A stretch of 64,000 nt of DNA from Bacteroidaceae bacterium (GTDB lineage: Bacteria; Bacteroidota; Bacteroidia; Bacteroidales; Bacteroidaceae), in NCBI GenBank assembly GCA_024401095.1, contig JAKSLR010000008.1, forward strand, positions 1 through 64,000, read 5' to 3'. Under the pieces are notes generated by a model, which had not been told where the DNA came from, ran no database searches, and worked only from the letters and a program-made list of their open reading frames with translations. Shown piece by piece: positions 31,171 to 39,236 of the stretch. The position numbers and the translations under genes were made by a program. Every line of letters begins with the position of its first letter. Position 1 is the first letter of the stretch.

Positions 31171-32391
31171 TTACTCATATCTGATGGCTTCAATCGGATC
31201 CATTCTTGCTGCTTTACGTGCAGGAAAATATCCGAATCCAACACCTATAATGACACAAACAATGAAGCTGACCACAACACTCCATAGTGGAACTTCAGCA
31301 GGGAAATTCAGAAGAGTGTTTGCCGCAAAGCTCACCAGCCATCCGAAACCAACACCTATGGCTCCACCCGTAACACTGATCATGATGGATTCCAAAAGGA
31401 ATTGATTACAGATATCCAGACCACTGGCTCCTACAGACATTCGCAGACCTATCTCCTTTGTTCGTTCGGTAACACTTACCAACATGATATTCATGATACC
31501 GATACCTGCAACCAGCAATGAGAAACCTGCAGCTACCACCAGAATAAGAGTCACCATGTTCATGGTAGAATCCATGGTTTCCATGATTTCCTGCTGAGAA
31601 TGAATGGAGAAGTTGTCTTCTGCACCTTCTTTAATCTTATGGGTCTCACGAAGAATTCCGGTTAACTCTGTTATAGCCTGATCTGTATATTCTTCACTCA
31701 GTGCAGAACAGTTTATACTGCCAAAATAAGTCTGAGCCTGCAGACGTTTCATTACAGTAGAATAAGGAGCCAATATCAAGTCATCCTGATCCATACCCAT
31801 TCCGTTGTAACCTTTCGCCTTGAGAACGCCAATGATTCGGAAAGGAATACTCTTGAAACGAATGGTCTTACCTATAGGATCTCCACCGTTAGGGAAGAGG
31901 TTGTCCACAATAGTCTGTCCTACAACGCAAACCTTGGAGCTCTTCTTAATATCATCATCAGAAAACATTTCTCCTTCTGCCACTACACGAGAATTAATAT
32001 CCAGATATTCTGCACTTTCTCCATACATAGTAGTAGATGCATTGTTTGCTCCATAGATTACCTGACCGGAAGTTGTCACTTCGGGACTGACGTAATTTAC
32101 ATAGTATTTATTCTTGACTATAGCTTCATAGTCTTCTACCTTAAGTGTCTGCATGTCACTAGGATCCATACGCACACCACCAAACATGTTTCCTCCCGGG
32201 CGAATCATGATCATGTTTGAACCCATGGATGAAATCTGGTCTTTGATGCTGTTCTTAGACCCTTGTCCTATAGCCATCATGATAATGACCGCACCTACAC
32301 CTATAATGATTCCAAGCATGGAAAGAAAAGAGCGGAATGCGTTATTTGCAATGGCTTTGAGGGCTATTTTCAATAAATTGATAAAATTCAT
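31171..32391 (-). CDS. MacB-type ABC transporter permease (FtsX family)
   Basis: 406 aa. One membrane helix near the N-terminus (SFLSMLGIIIGVGAVIIMM), a periplasmic domain of about 220 residues, then three C-terminal helices, with the FtsX motif TERTKEIGLRMSVGAS. It corresponds to the membrane half of MacB, which in Bacteroidetes is often split from the ATPase. It is the last gene of the leftward operon TolC, MacA, ATPase, permease. Such pumps export macrolides, peptides or lipids by mechanotransmission. Confidence 0.9.
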   Translation of the reverse strand: MNFINLLKIALKAIANNAFRSFLSMLGIIIGVGAVIIMMAIGQGSKNSIKDQISSMGSNMIMIRPGGNMFGGVRMDPSDMQTLKVEDYEAIVKNKYYVNYVSPEVTTSGQVIYGANNASTTMYGESAEYLDINSRVVAEGEMFSDDDIKKSSKVCVVGQTIVDNLFPNGGDPIGKTIRFKSIPFRIIGVLKAKGYNGMGMDQDDLILAPYSTVMKRLQAQTYFGSINCSALSEEYTDQAITELTGILRETHKIKEGAEDNFSIHSQQEIMETMDSTMNMVTLILVVAAGFSLLVAGIGIMNIMLVSVTERTKEIGLRMSVGASGLDICNQFLLESIMISVTGGAIGVGFGWLVSFAANTLLNFPAEVPLWSVVVSFIVCVIIGVGFGYFPARKAARMDPIEAIRYE

Positions 32392-32415: not shown

Positions 32416-33174
32416 CTAATCATCCTGTGGTGCTGGTAAGTTGGCCAACGCTTCAGCTGCAGAAAGTATATTCTTGTTTTCTACATCCTCACGAATCTTA
32501 CCGTCTCGTAACACGATGTTTCGGCTACTGTATTGGGCAATTTCCGGATTATGAGTAACAAAGATGATGGTCCTGCCTTCTGCATGAAGCTTCTGAAACA
32601 GTACCAGTACCTCAAAGCTGGTACGTGTATCCAGGTTTCCGGTAGCTTCATCGGCCAGAATAATGACCGGATTGTTCACCAGAGCACGGGCTATAGCCAC
32701 ACGTTGCATCTGACCACCAGACATCTGGTTGCTCTTATGTTCCATTCTATCGGCCAGACCTACTGCAGTCAATGCCTTTTCTGCTGCCTCACGTCTCATC
32801 TTGGCTGTATATTCTGAGTTGTACATCAGAGGCAACTCTACATTTTCTACAGCTGTAGTCTTGGCTAGCAGGTTATAGTTCTGGAAAACAAAGCCTATCT
32901 TTCGGTTTCGTAATCTGGCACGTTGACGTCTTTGCATGGTTCTTACACTGATGCCATCCAGATAATATTCACCCGAAGTAGGTGTATCCAGACATCCCAA
33001 CTGATTCAGTAGGGTAGATTTACCAGAACCGGAAGTACCCATGATGGTGACAAACTCACCTTCATAGATCTTAAAACTGACACCTCTCAGGGCATGAACT
33101 ACCTCAGATCCCACCTGAAAGTCTCGTTTTACATTATCCAGTTCAATGATTACTTTTCTTGTATCTTCAGCCAT
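32416..33174 (-). CDS. MacB/LolD-type ABC transporter ATPase
   Basis: 252 aa: Walker [10 protein letters not shown] (about 46-54), Q-loop region FVFQNYNLL, signature [13 protein letters not shown], Walker [14 protein letters not shown] and H-loop FVTHNPEIA. It powers the permease encoded 24 nt downstream, with the periplasmic adaptor gene 8 nt upstream. The C-terminal tail of about 25 residues is acidic. Confidence 0.93.
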
Positions 33175-33182
33175 AATCTGTC

Positions 33183-34370
33183 TTATTCGTTTTCAGTCTT
33201 GTTGTTTCTTCTTGATCCTGGAGGGCCAGGGAAGAAAGAATTTTCTGGCGCTTCTTTCAGAATATCGTCTTCTCCTTCTGTCTTTATTTCTGTAACTACT
33301 TCTGTTCCAGCACTTACACCTTCTAGAATCTGTGTCATTGAGCCATTGGTAACACCTACTTTTACTGCATGTGCGGTAAAGGTATTGCCTTCTTTTGTCC
33401 AGACTTTCTTGGCTGCTTTCACATCGTTGATCTTTCCGTCAGATCCTATCATGGCTTTGTTAGGGGTAAATTTCAATGCCTTAGATGGGACAACCAGTAC
33501 ATCTTTCAGTTCCTGGGTATAGATTGTGACATTGGCAGTGAGTCCTGGTTTCAGTTTAAGATCCTGGTTTGGTGCGCCAATGACCACCTCATAAGTCACA
33601 ACGTTACTTTCTGTGGTAGGCTGCTGTCTTACCTGTGTTACTAGACCCTCGAATGTATCATCTGGATATGCATCTACAGAGAAAGTCACGCGTTGTCCTT
33701 CCTTTACACCACCTATGTCAGCTTCATCAATGTCGGCAATCACGCGCATGTCTGTCAAGTCTTGGGCAATGGTGAACAGGGTTGGAGTACTGAAACCTGC
33801 AGCTACAGTCTGACCTTCTTCCACGGCTTTATCCAGGATGACACCATCTATAGGACTTGTAATGGTGGCATACGACAAGTTCTGTTGTGCCGTTTTCACA
33901 CTCTCCTGACGTGAGCGGTAAGTCTCTTTAGCCTGATAGTACTGGCTTCGTGCATTTTCAAAATCATTAGCACTGATTAATCCTTTATCGTAGAGGGTCT
34001 TATATCGGTTGTAATATCCTTCCTGATAATCCAGTGAACTCTTTGCACTGGCCAGATTACTCTGTGCGGTAATCAGGTCACTCATCAGGTTCTTGCGATC
34101 CATCTCGGCTATTATTTGTCCTTTCTTTACCAGACTGTTATAATCTACATAAATATGATCAATGATACCGGAAACCTGTGTACCGACATCCACCTTAGTA
34201 ACAGGTTCTATGGTACCTGTAGCGGTAATGGTTGAACTGATTTCACCTAAAGATGCCTTTGCAGTGGAAAAGGTGGTCTTTGATTCTTTCTTACCTCCTG
34301 AGCAAAAGTTGACAAGGCCGATTACAGCAACAGCTGCAATGGCAATATAAATGTACTTTTTCTTTATCAT
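33183..34370 (-). CDS. MacA-like periplasmic adaptor of a tripartite efflux pump
   Basis: 395 aa. The N-terminal hydrophobic anchor (YIAIAAVAVIGLVNFCSGG) is followed by a lipoyl/barrel-sandwich half (VDVGTQVSGIIDHIYVDYNSLVKKGQIIAEMD), an alpha-hairpin with heptads (about 95-170), the second lipoyl half (ITSPIDGVILDKAVEEGQTVAAG) and beta-barrel domains. It links the MacB-type ABC pump in the inner membrane to the TolC-like channel encoded 12 nt upstream. Confidence 0.92.
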   Translation of the reverse strand: MIKKKYIYIAIAAVAVIGLVNFCSGGKKESKTTFSTAKASLGEISSTITATGTIEPVTKVDVGTQVSGIIDHIYVDYNSLVKKGQIIAEMDRKNLMSDLITAQSNLASAKSSLDYQEGYYNRYKTLYDKGLISANDFENARSQYYQAKETYRSRQESVKTAQQNLSYATITSPIDGVILDKAVEEGQTVAAGFSTPTLFTIAQDLTDMRVIADIDEADIGGVKEGQRVTFSVDAYPDDTFEGLVTQVRQQPTTESNVVTYEVVIGAPNQDLKLKPGLTANVTIYTQELKDVLVVPSKALKFTPNKAMIGSDGKINDVKAAKKVWTKEGNTFTAHAVKVGVTNGSMTQILEGVSAGTEVVTEIKTEGEDDILKEAPENSFFPGPPGSRRNNKTENE

Positions 34371-34382
34371 AGTTTTATTGAT

Positions 34383-35714
34383 TTAAAGATTAATAGGTTC
34401 GCCAGCATAGAACTTCAGCAGTTGCTGATCCATGATAGCAGTATACTTGGATTGTAGTTTGTTTTGTGCAGCCTGAAGCACATTGTTTTTACCATCCAGC
34501 AGTTCGGCAATGTTCTTCAGTCCTACATTGAACTGTTCATTTAACAGGTCGTAACTTACCTGACTGCTTTCCAGACTGGCACATGCAGATTTGAACTCTG
34601 CCTGGGCATTTGTAGCATCAAGCCAGTATCCTTCTATGGTATTATAGAGGTTTTTCTGCTGATCCTGCAAATTCAACTGAGAGACTTGATATTGGTATTT
34701 TGCCTTTTCTACGGCACTTTTATTCTGTCTCTGGCTTAAGATAGGTACACTTATGCTAAGACCTACCATGTTGTTCCAATTGTTTTTCAGCTGTTTTCCC
34801 CATGCTGCAGCATTTGCACTGTTGGAACTGGTACCCACACTGGCATTCATACTCAAGGTAGGGAGCTTGCCAGCCTTGGCAATGTCAATGTTCAGATTGG
34901 CAGCATCAATATTCAACTGGCTGTTCCTGATTTCTGGTCGATTATCCAAGGCACTCTCATAAACACTTGCCAAAACAGGAAGAGCTTCCAATGCCCGTGC
35001 ATCTTCTACTTCTATAGTGGCAATATCAAAGTCTGTAGAACCTGTAAGTTCCAGCAACTGCTTAAGCTGCATCTTATAACGTTCTACGGCAGTCTTACTG
35101 CTTGTCACGCTATATTCATTCTGGGCAACCTGAGCCTCAAATTGTGCCAGATCGGCCTTGCTTAAATCGCCTACTTCTACACGTTCTTTGGCTCTATTTC
35201 GCTGAGCAATAGCAGTTTCCAAAACTTGCTCATTTACCTTTACTGCTTCTTTTGCATAGAGTATCTGGACATAATACTGCAGAATCTGCTCCTGAATACT
35301 GTTGGCACTTTGTTCTGCCTGAAGTCCGGCTTGTTCTACAGATATTTCGCTGGCTTCTATATTCATTTTTCTTCTTCCACCGTTCCATACCGTCCAGTTG
35401 GCATTCAGTCCATAACTGCCGTTGTAAGTTGTGCTACTGGATTTCATGGTTCCGGTGCCATCTGTGTAGGAAAAACTTTCCACCCATGGAGAATTGCTCA
35501 TGTTCTGGCTGCTGCTGAAAGAAAGACTTGGGAACAGCTGTGCCTTGGAACTGAGTAAATCTACTTCCGATTGTTTTTGCTGAATTTTACTCTGTTGCAG
35601 ACTGATATTGTTTTCCAGTGCATAGTCAATGCATTGACGTAGGTTCCACGTCTGTGCATGAACCAAGCCACTTGAACAGCAAGTCAGCAAGAGTAACAAT
35701 TGTTTTAGTTTCAT
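34383..35714 (-). CDS. TolC-family outer-membrane channel
   Basis: 443 aa from ATG 35714 (MKLKQLLLLLTCCSSGLVHAQ is a good signal peptide); the open frame to 35810 runs through the promoter and is not used. Two OEP repeats with long helices are seen, each starting with motifs such as LRQCIDYALENNISLQQSKIQ and PEIRNSQLNIDAANLNIDIAK. It is the first gene of the TolC-MacA-MacB operon and forms its exit duct. Upstream lie a -7 box (35759-35766) and three TCGAC elements at 20-21 bp intervals, the same arrangement as in front of the LytTR operon, implying control by that system. Confidence 0.9.
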   Translation of the reverse strand: MKLKQLLLLLTCCSSGLVHAQTWNLRQCIDYALENNISLQQSKIQQKQSEVDLLSSKAQLFPSLSFSSSQNMSNSPWVESFSYTDGTGTMKSSSTTYNGSYGLNANWTVWNGGRRKMNIEASEISVEQAGLQAEQSANSIQEQILQYYVQILYAKEAVKVNEQVLETAIAQRNRAKERVEVGDLSKADLAQFEAQVAQNEYSVTSSKTAVERYKMQLKQLLELTGSTDFDIATIEVEDARALEALPVLASVYESALDNRPEIRNSQLNIDAANLNIDIAKAGKLPTLSMNASVGTSSNSANAAAWGKQLKNNWNNMVGLSISVPILSQRQNKSAVEKAKYQYQVSQLNLQDQQKNLYNTIEGYWLDATNAQAEFKSACASLESSQVSYDLLNEQFNVGLKNIAELLDGKNNVLQAAQNKLQSKYTAIMDQQLLKFYAGEPINL

Positions 35715-35795: not shown

Positions 35796-35846
35796 GTTCG
35801 ACGAGTTCAAATCCTAATCGACAAAAAGCATGATTTAATCGACAAA
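35796..35846 (-). promoter_or_regulatory. Candidate LytTR operator: three repeats, 20-21 bp apart
   Basis: On the plus strand the repeats read GTTCGACGAG (35796), AATCGACAAA (35816) and AATCGACAAA (35837). In the direction of transcription the last two are TTTGTCGATT. The two nearest elements end 32 and 52 bp from the T of the -7 box. The 21-bp period with same-orientation repeats is the pattern bound by LytTR dimers. The same repeats occur at 37175-37206 and 39205-39236. Confidence 0.7.
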
Positions 35847-35850
35847 TAAA

Positions 35851-35883
35851 AAAGCTTCGATTCAAATTAATGATCGAAGCTTT
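35851..35883 (-). terminator. Terminator of the acyltransferase gene
   Basis: AAAGCTTCGAT (35851-35861) pairs perfectly with ATCGAAGCTTT (35873-35883). On the minus strand the stem is followed by a T-rich run. It sits 18 nt after the stop at 35902. Confidence 0.88.
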
Positions 35884-35901
35884 AATAAATGGTTGTTATG
35901 A

Positions 35902-37107
35902 TTATGATTTTTTCATCAGGATCTTTCTCTTCAGCCACTCCCTTACAGGCATATCATATAATTTCATACATGCATAAGCCATCAGAATGGAAAGAATCAG
36001 AACAGCTACAAAGACAAATGCATTCTGTGCCCAGGTAGCGTCTTTATGGGTAGCCACCCAACTTTGCTGGACATAGACCAGAGAGAAATGGGTTAGATAA
36101 AGCGGATAAGAGATGTCTCCCAAGAACTTACAGATAGCAGAACTATGCTTGCCTTTAATCTTGCTGCCGGCACCCATGGCTACTATCAATGGGAACATGA
36201 GCAGAATGACAAAACTCTCATAAAGACCATTTATCCAAAGTGTATCGTTTGGACCAACCACCATGCTAAATGTCTCACGGTCAAAATGGGCGTCATTTAC
36301 GCCAAGTATTGGCATGCCAAGCAGGACAATGATAATGAGTGAGCACCACCAGAAACCGCCCTTGACTGGAATCAGCTTTCCCATTCTGCTGACTAATAAA
36401 CCTCCAAAGAAAGGATACATTAAGCGGGTTAAGGCTACACTTACTTCGCTCACTGTCAAGCTAAATCCACTGTTCACGGAATAGCGTGCCCATCGGTGTC
36501 CCCATAGACCTATGATATCAATGTTATTGGCCAAACAAAAACTGAAGACAGCACAAATCAGCACAAAGATGCTGAGGGCTACCTTATTAAACCTACGCAC
36601 GAAGAGTGCATAGATGAAATTGGCAAAATACTCGTAATGAAGGGTCCAGAATGTTCCACCCAGTGAGCTCACCTCGGCATAACCACGAATATCCCAAGCC
36701 TGAGGCAGTGGAATCATCAGACATTGCCAGAGGAATACACCGAAGAGTACCCATGGAGCTGTTTCGCGAACAATGGCAAATGCTGGCACTCCATCTGTGA
36801 AATAATAGAACAGCATTGCTAGAAAAGCTGCCAGAATCACCATAGGGTGGAGTCGTACCAGACGTCGTTTAATAAAACCCCATGTCGTCATTCTATCCCA
36901 TCGGTCATCATAGGCATAACCGATTACAAAACCAGACAGTGCAAAGAAAAAGTCAACAGCCAAATAGCCATGACCGATGACATTGGTTCGTCCACCATAA
37001 CTTTCAAAAAGATGGAAGCAGACTACTATGAAAGCTGCAACTCCACGTAAACCATCAAGGATTTCATAGTGTGGTTTAGATTCTAAGTAAATTTCTTGTT
37101 GTTTCAT
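35902..37107 (-). CDS. Membrane acyltransferase (OafA/YrhL, acyltransferase 3 family)
   Basis: 401 aa from ATG 37107. A longer frame starts at 37122, but that ATG lies at the predicted transcription start, so the shorter form is preferred. About ten membrane helices are visible. The family motif HYEILDGLRGVAAFIVVCFHLFE has the catalytic-type His, and a conserved Arg follows in FIKRRLVRLHPM. Members transfer acetyl or other acyl groups to cell-surface sugars. It lies between the efflux operon and the LytTR operon and has its own promoter and terminator; its promoter does not show the LytTR geometry. Confidence 0.88.
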   Translation of the reverse strand: MKQQEIYLESKPHYEILDGLRGVAAFIVVCFHLFESYGGRTNVIGHGYLAVDFFFALSGFVIGYAYDDRWDRMTTWGFIKRRLVRLHPMVILAAFLAMLFYYFTDGVPAFAIVRETAPWVLFGVFLWQCLMIPLPQAWDIRGYAEVSSLGGTFWTLHYEYFANFIYALFVRRFNKVALSIFVLICAVFSFCLANNIDIIGLWGHRWARYSVNSGFSLTVSEVSVALTRLMYPFFGGLLVSRMGKLIPVKGGFWWCSLIIIVLLGMPILGVNDAHFDRETFSMVVGPNDTLWINGLYESFVILLMFPLIVAMGAGSKIKGKHSSAICKFLGDISYPLYLTHFSLVYVQQSWVATHKDATWAQNAFVFVAVLILSILMAYACMKLYDMPVREWLKRKILMKKS

Positions 37108-37130
37108 TTGTATTATATTCAATTACGGAA

Positions 37131-37161
37131 CAAAAATAAATTTATTTTGGGATTTAATCAA
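37131..37161 (-). promoter_or_regulatory. Promoter of the acyltransferase gene
   Basis: On the minus strand: TTG (complement of 37159-37161), a 20-nt spacer, then TATTTTTG (complement of 37131-37138). RNA would start near 37125, which rules against the ATG at 37122 as the start codon. Confidence 0.65.
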
Positions 37162-37174
37162 GTATCTTGGTTGT

Positions 37175-37206
37175 TTTTGTCGAATAAAAACCTTATTTTG
37201 TCGAAG
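37175..37206 (+). promoter_or_regulatory. Candidate LytTR operator of the sensor-regulator operon
   Basis: Two direct repeats TTTTGTCGAA at 37175-37184 and 37196-37205, exactly 21 bp apart. Their GTCGA cores end 52 and 31 bp before the TA of the -7 box at 37235. This is the same geometry as at the TolC operon (52 and 32) and at 39205-39236 (52 and 31), suggesting autoregulation. Confidence 0.72.
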
Positions 37207-37212
37207 GTTTTA

Positions 37213-37242
37213 TTGCAGATAATATTTAAAGTTCTATTTTTG
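37213..37242 (+). promoter_or_regulatory. Promoter of the LytS/LytTR operon
   Basis: TTG (37213-37215), a 19-nt spacer, then TATTTTTG (37235-37242). The leader of about 60 nt holds a small hairpin (AGCCTA/TAGGCT, 37258-37273) followed by a T-rich run, and a second -7-like box TATCTTTG at 37293-37300. Confidence 0.7.
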
Positions 37243-37307
37243 TAGAGTGAAAAAAGATAGCCTATTGATAGGCTCTTGTTTTCAAGATTTCTTATCTTTG
37301 CAAAACC

Positions 37308-38372
37308 ATGAAAAATAAAAAACTTATTATTGAGCTATCAGATATTATTACATTAGTGGTGATTTTATTATTGATAATCATGATTCCTATGTTAATCATG
37401 GTTGCAATAGGTAATAGTTGGTCTAATGCATTTTTTCATTTGAAATATGCAATTCCACCACTATTTGTCTTAATTTCATTTTTTCTAATCAGTTATTATT
37501 TCCTGATTCCATCCTACTTAATCAAGAAACGTTCCACAAAAAAATATATTATATCTACTATTTTATGTTATTTTGTTTTAACTCTAGGAAGTAACCAACT
37601 CGGTACTTTTATATATTCCGAAATATATAATTTTGGTTTTCCCCAATTACCAACTGAAATTTTTATTGCTTTTCAATTATCCTTCGTATTGACTAATTTG
37701 CTGCTCATAGGAACGGCTATGTCTCTTCGTTTTAATCAGCGTAATCGTATGTTGGAACTGGAACAGGCACTGCAGTCAAAAGAGCAGGCTCAGAATGAGC
37801 TCATCCGTTTGAAAGGGCAGCTTAATCCACATTTTCTGTTCAATACCTTAAATAATATCTCATCGCTTTCTGCTTTCGATCCCGATGCTACTCAGGAAAG
37901 TATCAGTCGGTTGAGCGAAATGCTTCGTTATGTTCTCTATGATTCATCAGATGAAAAAGTGCCATTAAAAAAGGATGTAGAGTTCATGCAGAACTACATG
38001 AACCTTATGCAGATCAGGTATGAAGATACGCTGAAGCCAGAAGTAAGCATGAAGGTAAATCATCCAGATTTACAGATTTCACCTATGCTTTTCATATCTT
38101 TGCTGGAGAATGCCTATAAATATGGAGCCAGCAGCCTTCATCCTTGTACATTATCTGTGAAGTTGGAAGATGACGAAAAAGGTGTTGTACATTTCTGTAT
38201 TACCAACACTTTGCTTACAGAACAGGAAATGGCTAGCAAGAAAAAAGGAGGTTTGGGTTTAGTAAATCTTAAGAAGCGTTTGGATTTGCTATATCCAGAT
38301 AAGTACACCTTTACTTATGGAGAGAAAGAAGACAATTATTACCAAGCAGAAGTTTTCATATCATGCAACTGA
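37308..38372 (+). CDS. LytS-type sensor histidine kinase
   Basis: 354 aa. Four membrane helices in the first 135 residues and no separate extracellular sensor domain, then a short coiled coil and the His_kinase domain with phosphoacceptor H175 in LNPHFLFNTLNNISS. The ATPase part has SLLENAYKYG and GGLGLVNLKKRLDLLYP. Inner-membrane kinases of this class phosphorylate LytTR regulators; the partner gene overlaps its end by 10 nt. The few extracellular loops suggest sensing within the membrane, for example an envelope or amphiphile signal, which would fit control of an efflux pump. Confidence 0.93.
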   Translation: MKNKKLIIELSDIITLVVILLLIIMIPMLIMVAIGNSWSNAFFHLKYAIPPLFVLISFFLISYYFLIPSYLIKKRSTKKYIISTILCYFVLTLGSNQLGTFIYSEIYNFGFPQLPTEIFIAFQLSFVLTNLLLIGTAMSLRFNQRNRMLELEQALQSKEQAQNELIRLKGQLNPHFLFNTLNNISSLSAFDPDATQESISRLSEMLRYVLYDSSDEKVPLKKDVEFMQNYMNLMQIRYEDTLKPEVSMKVNHPDLQISPMLFISLLENAYKYGASSLHPCTLSVKLEDDEKGVVHFCITNTLLTEQEMASKKKGGLGLVNLKKRLDLLYPDKYTFTYGEKEDNYYQAEVFISCN

Positions 38373-39085
38373 ATTGTATTATAGTAGATGATGAGCCATT
38401 GGCTATCAAGCTGTTAAAGAATTTTGTGGAACGGACACCTTTCCTGGAATTGAAGGGTTCTTATCTGGATCCTATGGATGCTCTTACGCATCTTACCGAT
38501 GAGATACATCTTGTTTTCCTGGATATTAATATGCCAGGAATTACAGGCTTGGAACTTGGTAAACTTATTCCTAAGCCTACCAGAATCATCTATACTACAG
38601 CTTATAAGGAATATGCCTTTGAAAGCTATGAGGTAGAAGCTCTGGATTACTTGCTTAAGCCTATCAGTTATTCTAAATTCCTGAATGCTGTAACCAGAGC
38701 CAAGGTTTATTTTGAACAGCAGCTTGCGGCTTCAAAAGTGGATTCTTCTATACCGTCAGTACCTGTGGAGGACAAGGATTATATTTTCGTGAAATGTGAG
38801 TTCAAGCAGGTACGCATCGACTTGGATAAGATCTTGTTTGTAAGTGGTATGCGTGATTATGTGCGAATTCATTTAAAGGGAGAGAAGATTCCGGTTACAG
38901 CACTTTCTACCATGAAAGCTATAGAAGAAAAACTAAAGGAACCGCGTTTCATGCGTGTACATCGCTCCTACATTGTGGCAATGGACAAGATAGAAAGTGT
39001 GGAGCGCAATTGTATCTCTATTGCGGGTGAGGTTATTCCAATCTCTTTAGCTAATCAAGATCATTTCTTTGAACTCATGAAATAA
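38363..39085 (+). CDS. LytTR-family response regulator
   Basis: 240 aa. Receiver domain with the acidic pocket at IIVDDEP, phosphoacceptor D54 in VFLDINMPG, T79 and K99, then a linker and a LytTR DNA-binding domain (about 138-238) with VRIHLKGEKIPV and RFMRVHRSYIVAMDKI. It overlaps the kinase gene by 10 nt and is surely its partner. LytTR proteins bind direct repeats one helical double-turn apart; such repeats with a TTTGTCGA core lie before this operon, before the TolC operon and at 39205-39236. Confidence 0.95.
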   Translation: MQLNCIIVDDEPLAIKLLKNFVERTPFLELKGSYLDPMDALTHLTDEIHLVFLDINMPGITGLELGKLIPKPTRIIYTTAYKEYAFESYEVEALDYLLKPISYSKFLNAVTRAKVYFEQQLAASKVDSSIPSVPVEDKDYIFVKCEFKQVRIDLDKILFVSGMRDYVRIHLKGEKIPVTALSTMKAIEEKLKEPRFMRVHRSYIVAMDKIESVERNCISIAGEVIPISLANQDHFFELMK

Positions 39086-39162
39086 AATAAAAGAGAAGCA
39101 CTTCGCTGTGCCTCTCTTTTTTTACCTTAAATCTAATAACTATACAAAATACCTTAATTTTC
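39083..39162 (-). ncRNA. Candidate LytTR-controlled small RNA of about 80 nt
   Basis: A leftward unit made of a candidate operator (39205-39236), -7 box TATATTTG (39169-39176 on the minus strand) and a hairpin with T-rich tail (39089-39120). The 40-nt body between promoter and hairpin has no reading frame. The hairpin stem contains one G-U pair as minus-strand RNA, but an A-C mismatch as plus-strand RNA, so selection seems to have preserved the minus-strand form. The 5' part is A/U-rich and unpaired, as in many base-pairing RNAs. Not recognised as a known family. Confidence 0.42.
39089..39121. terminator. Hairpin terminator after the LytTR gene, also fitting a leftward small RNA
   Basis: AGAGAAGCAC (39092-39101), loop TTCGCT, then GTGCCTCTCT (39108-39117), with A and T runs on both sides. 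It begins 4 nt after the regulator stop codon. The stem is fully paired only when read as minus-strand RNA. Confidence 0.85.
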
Positions 39163-39168
39163 TAATTG

Positions 39169-39176
39169 CAAATATA
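39169..39176 (-). promoter_or_regulatory. Leftward -7 box (TATATTTG) with no gene downstream
   Basis: An exact TAnnTTTG on the minus strand. It has the same spacing to upstream TCGAC repeats as the LytTR and TolC operon promoters. No TTG at -33, consistent with activation. Confidence 0.5.
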
Positions 39177-39204
39177 AGAAAGTGTTTTCTTTTTTTAAAT
39201 AGTT

Positions 39205-39236
39205 ATTCGACAAACGGGGATTTTTAATCGACGAAA
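39205..39236 (-). promoter_or_regulatory. Third candidate LytTR operator
   Basis: ATTCGACAAA (39205-39214) and AATCGACGAA (39226-39235), 21 bp apart. Cores start 31 and 52 bp from the -7 box at 39176. It lies between two 3' ends (regulator and DASS transporter), where an operator is unexpected unless the leftward transcript exists. Confidence 0.6.

Follow-up and report, generated by a model that had tools for sequence, protein, structure and literature searches.

Direct repeats before LytS-LytTR and efflux operons as candidate LytTR operators in Bacteroidaceae

Three promoters in the 64,000-nucleotide stretch of DNA analysed here (the window), which belongs to a gut-type Bacteroidaceae genome of 2.86 Mb, are preceded by same-direction repeats of an 8-bp core. 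One stands before a TolC-MacAB efflux operon, one before the two-component operon lytS1-lytTR1 and one before a promoter that faces the end of lytTR1. From the motif and its geometry, its conservation and helical phasing and the genes around it, all of which are read directly from the DNA, we consider it likely that the repeats are LytTR operators, that LytTR1 activates its own operon, that the TolC site derives from an array of the paralogous regulator LytTR2, and that an RND pump has been recruited to the same control.

Repeat pairs and promoters in the window

The efflux operon encodes, by Pfam domains, a tripartite MacAB-TolC system (OEP, MacA-type adaptor and MacB-type ATPase/permease); the NCBIfam MacA and MacB equivalogs remain below cut-off, and MacB is here split into two genes (Table 1). 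The lytS1 and lytTR1 genes overlap by 10 bp and combine, in one operon, a PF06580 sensor with a Response_reg/LytTR regulator, the composition of a LytS/LytTR two-component system. Beyond the third site lies a carrier of the CitMHS/Na-sulphate symporter type (Pfam). Between the LytS1 and TolC operons lies an acyltransferase-3 gene with its own -7 box (TATTTTTG, 37138-37131) on the far side of the LytS1 operator; that operator is upstream of this gene too, in reversed orientation, and co-regulation could occur. No acyltransferase-3 homolog was found by tblastn among the congener loci fetched.

Table 1. Genes, putative operators and promoters in the window, and RND operators in the genus
Feature	Position	Strand	Evidence or distance to -7 box
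MacB-type permease (MacB_PCD/FtsX)	31171..32391	-	PF12704 + PF02687
MacB-type ATPase subunit (ABC_tran)	32416..33174	-	PF00005; best NCBIfam MacB, below cut-off
MacA-like periplasmic adaptor	33183..34370	-	PF16576 (HlyD_D23); TIGR01730 above cut-off
TolC-family outer membrane efflux protein (OEP)	34383..35711	-	Pfam PF02321
TolC operon promoter -7 box, TATCTTTG	35766-35759	-	
TolC-MacAB operator, three tandem elements	35798..35846	-	72/51/31 bases
TolC operator, outer and middle cores, TTTGTCGA and TTTGTCGA	35846-35839, 35825-35818	-	period 21
TolC operator, degenerate third core, CTCGTCGA	35805-35798	-	period 20
Acyltransferase-3 gene, divergent from LytS1	35902..37107	-	PF01757
LytS1 operator, TTTGTCGA-N13-TTTGTCGA	37176..37204 (cores 37176-37183, 37197-37204)	+	51/30 bases
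LytS1-LytTR1 promoter -7 box, TATTTTTG	37235-37242	+	
LytS1 histidine kinase	37308..38372	+	PF06580
LytTR1 response regulator (receiver + LytTR DNA-binding domain)	38363..39085	+	PF00072 + PF04397; tree
Predicted ~75-nt transcript of third promoter	39086..39162	-	terminator scan; fold z = -3.3
Orphan third promoter -7 box, TATATTTG	39176-39169	-	
Third operator, TTCGTCGA-N13-TTTGTCGA	39207..39235 (cores 39235-39228, 39214-39207)	-	51/30 bases
RND operator, G000, contig C11			30 bp
RND operator, G002, contig C5			31 bp
RND operator, G003, contig C78 (no TetR)			30 bp
RND operator, G005, contig C7			31 bp

All three promoters carry a -7 box of the TAnnTTTG form, the Bacteroidota consensus (PMC7366714) for promoters of the primary sigma factor, and the bases between core and TA number 51/30 at LytS1, 51/31 at TolC and 51/30 at the third site. 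The first-pass annotation had reported direct repeats of 21-bp period at these places, with distances of 52/31, 52/32 and 52/31 and a single geometry for the three promoters. The repeats are present as claimed and the arithmetic is exact, but its TolC figures leave out the outermost element, a perfect core at 72 bases, and belong to the middle one, also perfect, and to the degenerate one; this promoter has three elements rather than two.

The same annotation had proposed a genome-wide search for paired cores. In that search (all genome-wide statements here are pattern searches) TTTGTCGA-N13-TTTGTCGA with at most one mismatch was confined to the three sites of the window, and 6.4 Mb generated from a dinucleotide Markov model contained no perfect 21-bp pair. 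Single cores are no commoner in the window than in shuffles, so the signal lies in the repeat pairs and not in the cores as such. A pair of the shorter core GTCGA combined with a -7 box gave four matches in this genome vs none for the reversed control.

Known LytTR sites consist of two repeats of 9-11 nt each with spacers of 11-13 nt (PMC4847170), and the pairs studied here have the form of LytTR direct repeats, namely two same-direction elements of ~8-11 bp with 11-13 bp between them and a period of 21-22 bp. They also lie where a LytTR operator would, just upstream of the core promoter: 29-31 bp separate the proximal core from the TA of the -7 box, or that distance plus whole turns. Over all sites, the distances from inner core to TA cluster at 29-31, 41, 50-52 and 61 bp, in steps of about one DNA turn (Rayleigh R = 0.92 at 10.5 bp; p ~4e-4 with related sites collapsed, the sites still being partly dependent and the -7 boxes having been picked by consensus). 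Helical phasing, the known repeat format and the Bacteroidota -7 consensus thus agree in pointing to LytTR operators. Association with LytTR genes and co-conservation with them were found as well, with exceptions in two congeners, G003 for LytTR1 and G004 for LytTR2. The proposal of the first-pass annotation that these are operators of LytTR type is therefore borne out, so far as sequence can speak, by the 8-bp direct repeat, the N13 spacer, the two-turn period, the promoter-adjacent position and the conservation.

The operator in related genomes

The genome of the window (G000) was compared with five congeners (G001-G005), all of which have a LytTR1 ortholog (66-80% identity). Outside the genus, orthologs of 62% identity occur in two genomes that belong to a second genus, g23. 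The neighbourhoods of LytTR1 vary, yet the pair precedes LytS1 in G004 (where it is perfect), G002 and G005. In g23 (G027, G052) it precedes an operon of OMP_b-brl_3, LytS1 and LytTR1. A third genus, g5, has OMP-LytS-LytTR operons with TTCGTCGA-N14-NTCGTCGA or variants of it, the distance to the -7 box being 30 bp; the pair of period 22 is seen in three g5 loci (L132, L133, L135), and L134 retains the CGTCGA part only. G001 has an array that faces a divergent OMP gene, and a pair there that seemed to read towards LytS1 was rejected as the reverse strand of this array. Loss of the repeats in relatives that keep the regulator had been named in the first-pass annotation as what would speak against it; most relatives retain the sites, the losses being the LytTR1 site of G003, where LytS1 is lost too and the TolC and RND operators persist, and the RND sites of G001 and G004.

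Conserved operons of OMP_b-brl_3-type protein, LytS and LytTR with GTCGA operators were thus seen in two other genera (L131:4329-8329 and L132-L135), and the outer membrane protein may be an ancestral target or co-sensor of LytTR1-type systems. In Duncaniella (Muribaculaceae), ACTGTCGG-N13-AATGTCTA lies upstream of a LytS gene (L010, at 7853), 29 bp from the -7 box, so the geometry may reach beyond Bacteroidaceae.

TolC-MacAB occurs in five genomes of the genus. Each of them has the pair before TolC, with 50-51 bp between it and the -7 box, and in four the operon is on a contig other than that of LytTR1. In G002, G003 and G005 the operon runs on into a second pair, LytS2-LytTR2, whose regulator is cleanly separated from LytTR1 in the tree, the two being paralogs; in G000 and G004 LytS2-LytTR2 lies outside the TolC operon (in G000 on contig C45, locus L138). 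Elsewhere in the Bacteroidaceae, the genera examined mostly have the order TolC-MacAB-LytS2-LytTR2, or at least its MacB-LytS2-LytTR2 end where only that part was fetched. In at least seven of these genera TolC is preceded by three tandem elements, whose distances to the -7 box are 71, 50 and 29 bp, for example TTTATCGG-N13-TTTATCGA-N13-AAAATCTA; no LytTR1 ortholog was found in the seven. When the core TTTGTCGA, taken from the window and not derived from these promoters, was scored on the TolC promoters and averaged over the seven genera, the peaks fell at 50, then 29, and also at 71 bp, and none of 200 dinucleotide shuffles matched the maximum. The three-element TolC site of the window is therefore best read as a descendant of the array. 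Three Bacteroidales loci with the same gene order (L013, L019, L038) were set aside for want of a recognisable array.

The same operator was found by a genus-wide search before a TetR-TolC-MFP-RND efflux operon in four of the six genus genomes. Seven genomes farther off also have a comparable gene. The operator is missing in six of them, and in the seventh, G173, one element alone stands at roughly the expected distance; the RND pump therefore appears to have been recruited in this genus specifically.

Regulators, mode of action and known systems

We propose that phosphorylated LytTR response regulators would occupy the repeats as operators. A dimer would contact a pair of 8-bp elements that are spaced by two turns of the helix and adjoin the core promoter on its upstream side, the proximal one ending ~30 bp short of the TA in TAnnTTTG. 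Since the core-to-TA distances step by about one turn, a face-of-helix activator is the best fit, and the bound regulator would recruit RNA polymerase. Binding, activation over repression and the identity of the reader at TolC are what we infer here. That LytTR binding instead represses these promoters is unlikely: negative autoregulation is conceivable, but the position upstream of the core promoter and the whole-turn shifts to 41, 51 and 61 bp fit a polymerase-touching activator, and repressor sites presumably overlap the core promoter as a rule. Even less credit is due to a regulator unrelated to LytTR, such as the TetR protein of the RND operon, or to a structural role of the sites in the promoter. 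The tetR gene does open the RND operon in G000 and G002; TetR proteins, however, bind inverted and not direct repeats, the RND operon of G003 has the site without TetR, the sites precede LytS-LytTR operons in several genera, and their genome-wide rarity means that they are no general promoter part.

If the repeats are activating LytTR operators, as we prefer, LytTR1 would very probably activate its own lytS1-lytTR1 operon through 37176-37204. The tolC-macAB site would be a worn descendant of the three-element operator by which LytTR2 would control MacAB-TolC family-wide, and its reader in this species is probably LytTR1, LytTR2 or both; by descent TolC would belong to LytTR2, and both regulators may read it. 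Recruitment of the operator to the TetR-TolC-MFP-RND operon would then have given a small envelope/efflux regulon.

The motifs of LytTR1 and LytTR2 overlap too much for the reader to be assigned by sequence. Adjacency and the identity of the perfect elements favour LytTR1 at TolC, and descent favours LytTR2. In G003 the TolC and RND operators persist despite the loss of LytS1 and of the LytTR1 operator, which favours LytTR2 in that genome. It is a real possibility, although we lean against it, that LytTR2 alone reads the TolC operator, that LytTR1 is limited to its own operon and that their proximity in this genome is accidental. The commonness of TolC-MacAB-LytS2-LytTR2 in many of the Bacteroidaceae loci examined and the same-geometry operator of seven genera argue for this, together with the TolC operator kept in G003 beside an orphaned LytTR1 and the site that the LytS2 promoter of G000 has of its own (TTCGTCGG-N14-TTCGTCTA, 29 bp from the -7 box). 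That LytS2 site is poorer, however, with a period of 22, and in G000 and G004, where LytS2-LytTR2 is gone from the operon, the TolC elements match those of LytS1 (TTTGTCGA twice in G000). The first-pass annotation had taken the adjacent LytTR protein as the natural reader and had joined the three promoters into one circuit. Its reader is likely for the LytTR1 operon but is not supported as simply the one reader of TolC, given the ancestral array of the LytTR2 operon and the retention of LytTR2; the circuit is also incomplete, since the third promoter is geneless and the RND operon outside the window shares the operator.

AgrA and other Gram-positive LytTR regulators have the LytTR domain, same-direction repeats about two turns apart and autoregulation; they differ in core sequence, kinase type and quorum-sensing context, and LytTR1 scores far below the cut-off of the AgrA model. 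BtsR of the E. coli BtsS/BtsR system, whose operator consists of direct repeats with an N13 spacer, is the best NCBIfam match of LytTR1. Its target is a pyruvate transporter, however, and LytTR1 reaches 103.6 bits where the cut-off of the BtsR equivalog NF008677 is 246, so LytTR1 is not BtsR. YpdA/YpdB of E. coli likewise pairs a LytS kinase with a LytTR regulator that targets a transporter gene, and its PyhjX site has direct repeats, GGCATTTCAT occurring twice with a 21-bp period in the printed probe (PMC4847170, PMC5552118). That system has another core sequence, an E. coli-type promoter, a single-pair operator and a pyruvate-linked signal, whereas the system of the window has an efflux operon, the Bacteroidota -7 box and three elements at TolC. 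MacAB-TolC efflux operons share the gene content TolC, MacA and MacB, but ATPase and permease are here separate genes, and the operon of the relatives has its own LytS2-LytTR2 pair.

LytTR operators of the direct-repeat kind are thus already known. A literature search of limited range gave no earlier description of such an operator in Bacteroidota; neither its sequence in Bacteroidaceae nor the three-element array nor a link to MacAB/RND efflux was found described there, and all three may be new. The comparison supplies a searchable operator for Bacteroidaceae LytS/LytTR systems, TTNGTCGA-N13-TTNGTCGA at 29-31 bp or whole turns farther from TAnnTTTG, connects these systems with efflux pumps of the MacAB-TolC and RND types, and shows that in many Bacteroidaceae the MacAB-TolC operon has a regulator gene of its own and a conserved three-element operator. 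Two-component control of intrinsic efflux can now be tested directly in tractable relatives with a defined DNA motif.

The third promoter and other matches

A terminator scan places a 13-bp hairpin ~75 nt downstream of the third promoter, and the predicted transcript ends at this hairpin, which is common to the 3' end of lytTR1; on this reading of the sequence the third operator-promoter has no gene to express. A connection with an OMP gene like that of the g23 operon was rejected, the OMP ortholog being present only in G001 within the genus. A more speculative scheme, which we think rather unlikely as a whole, is that the third operator drives a LytTR-induced small RNA of ~75 nt which, overlapping lytTR1 in antisense at its 3' untranslated end, would provide negative feedback, and that LytTR1 and LytTR2 compete or cooperate on a shared efflux regulon based on a helically phased array of three elements.

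Several other matches in the genus were discarded, one on G002 contig C18 because its repeats form a terminator-like hairpin, and those on G002 C7, G005 C9, G005 C7 and G001 C57 because the -7 box is not full. In G000, the gene of a CarboxypepD_reg/OMP_b-brl_3 outer membrane protein is preceded, on contig C6 (L159:4656, minus strand), by TTTATCGA-N13-TTTATCGA with a -7 box 32 bp away; weak remnants occur in G002 and G005 and none in G003, G004 or G001, and this gene is a doubtful regulon target. A second orphan site is found in G003 between an LruC-like gene and purL (C78:31084; L160:5085, minus strand), where TTTGTCGT-N13-TTTGTCGA has a -7 box at 30 bp and a terminator hairpin within ~80 nt.
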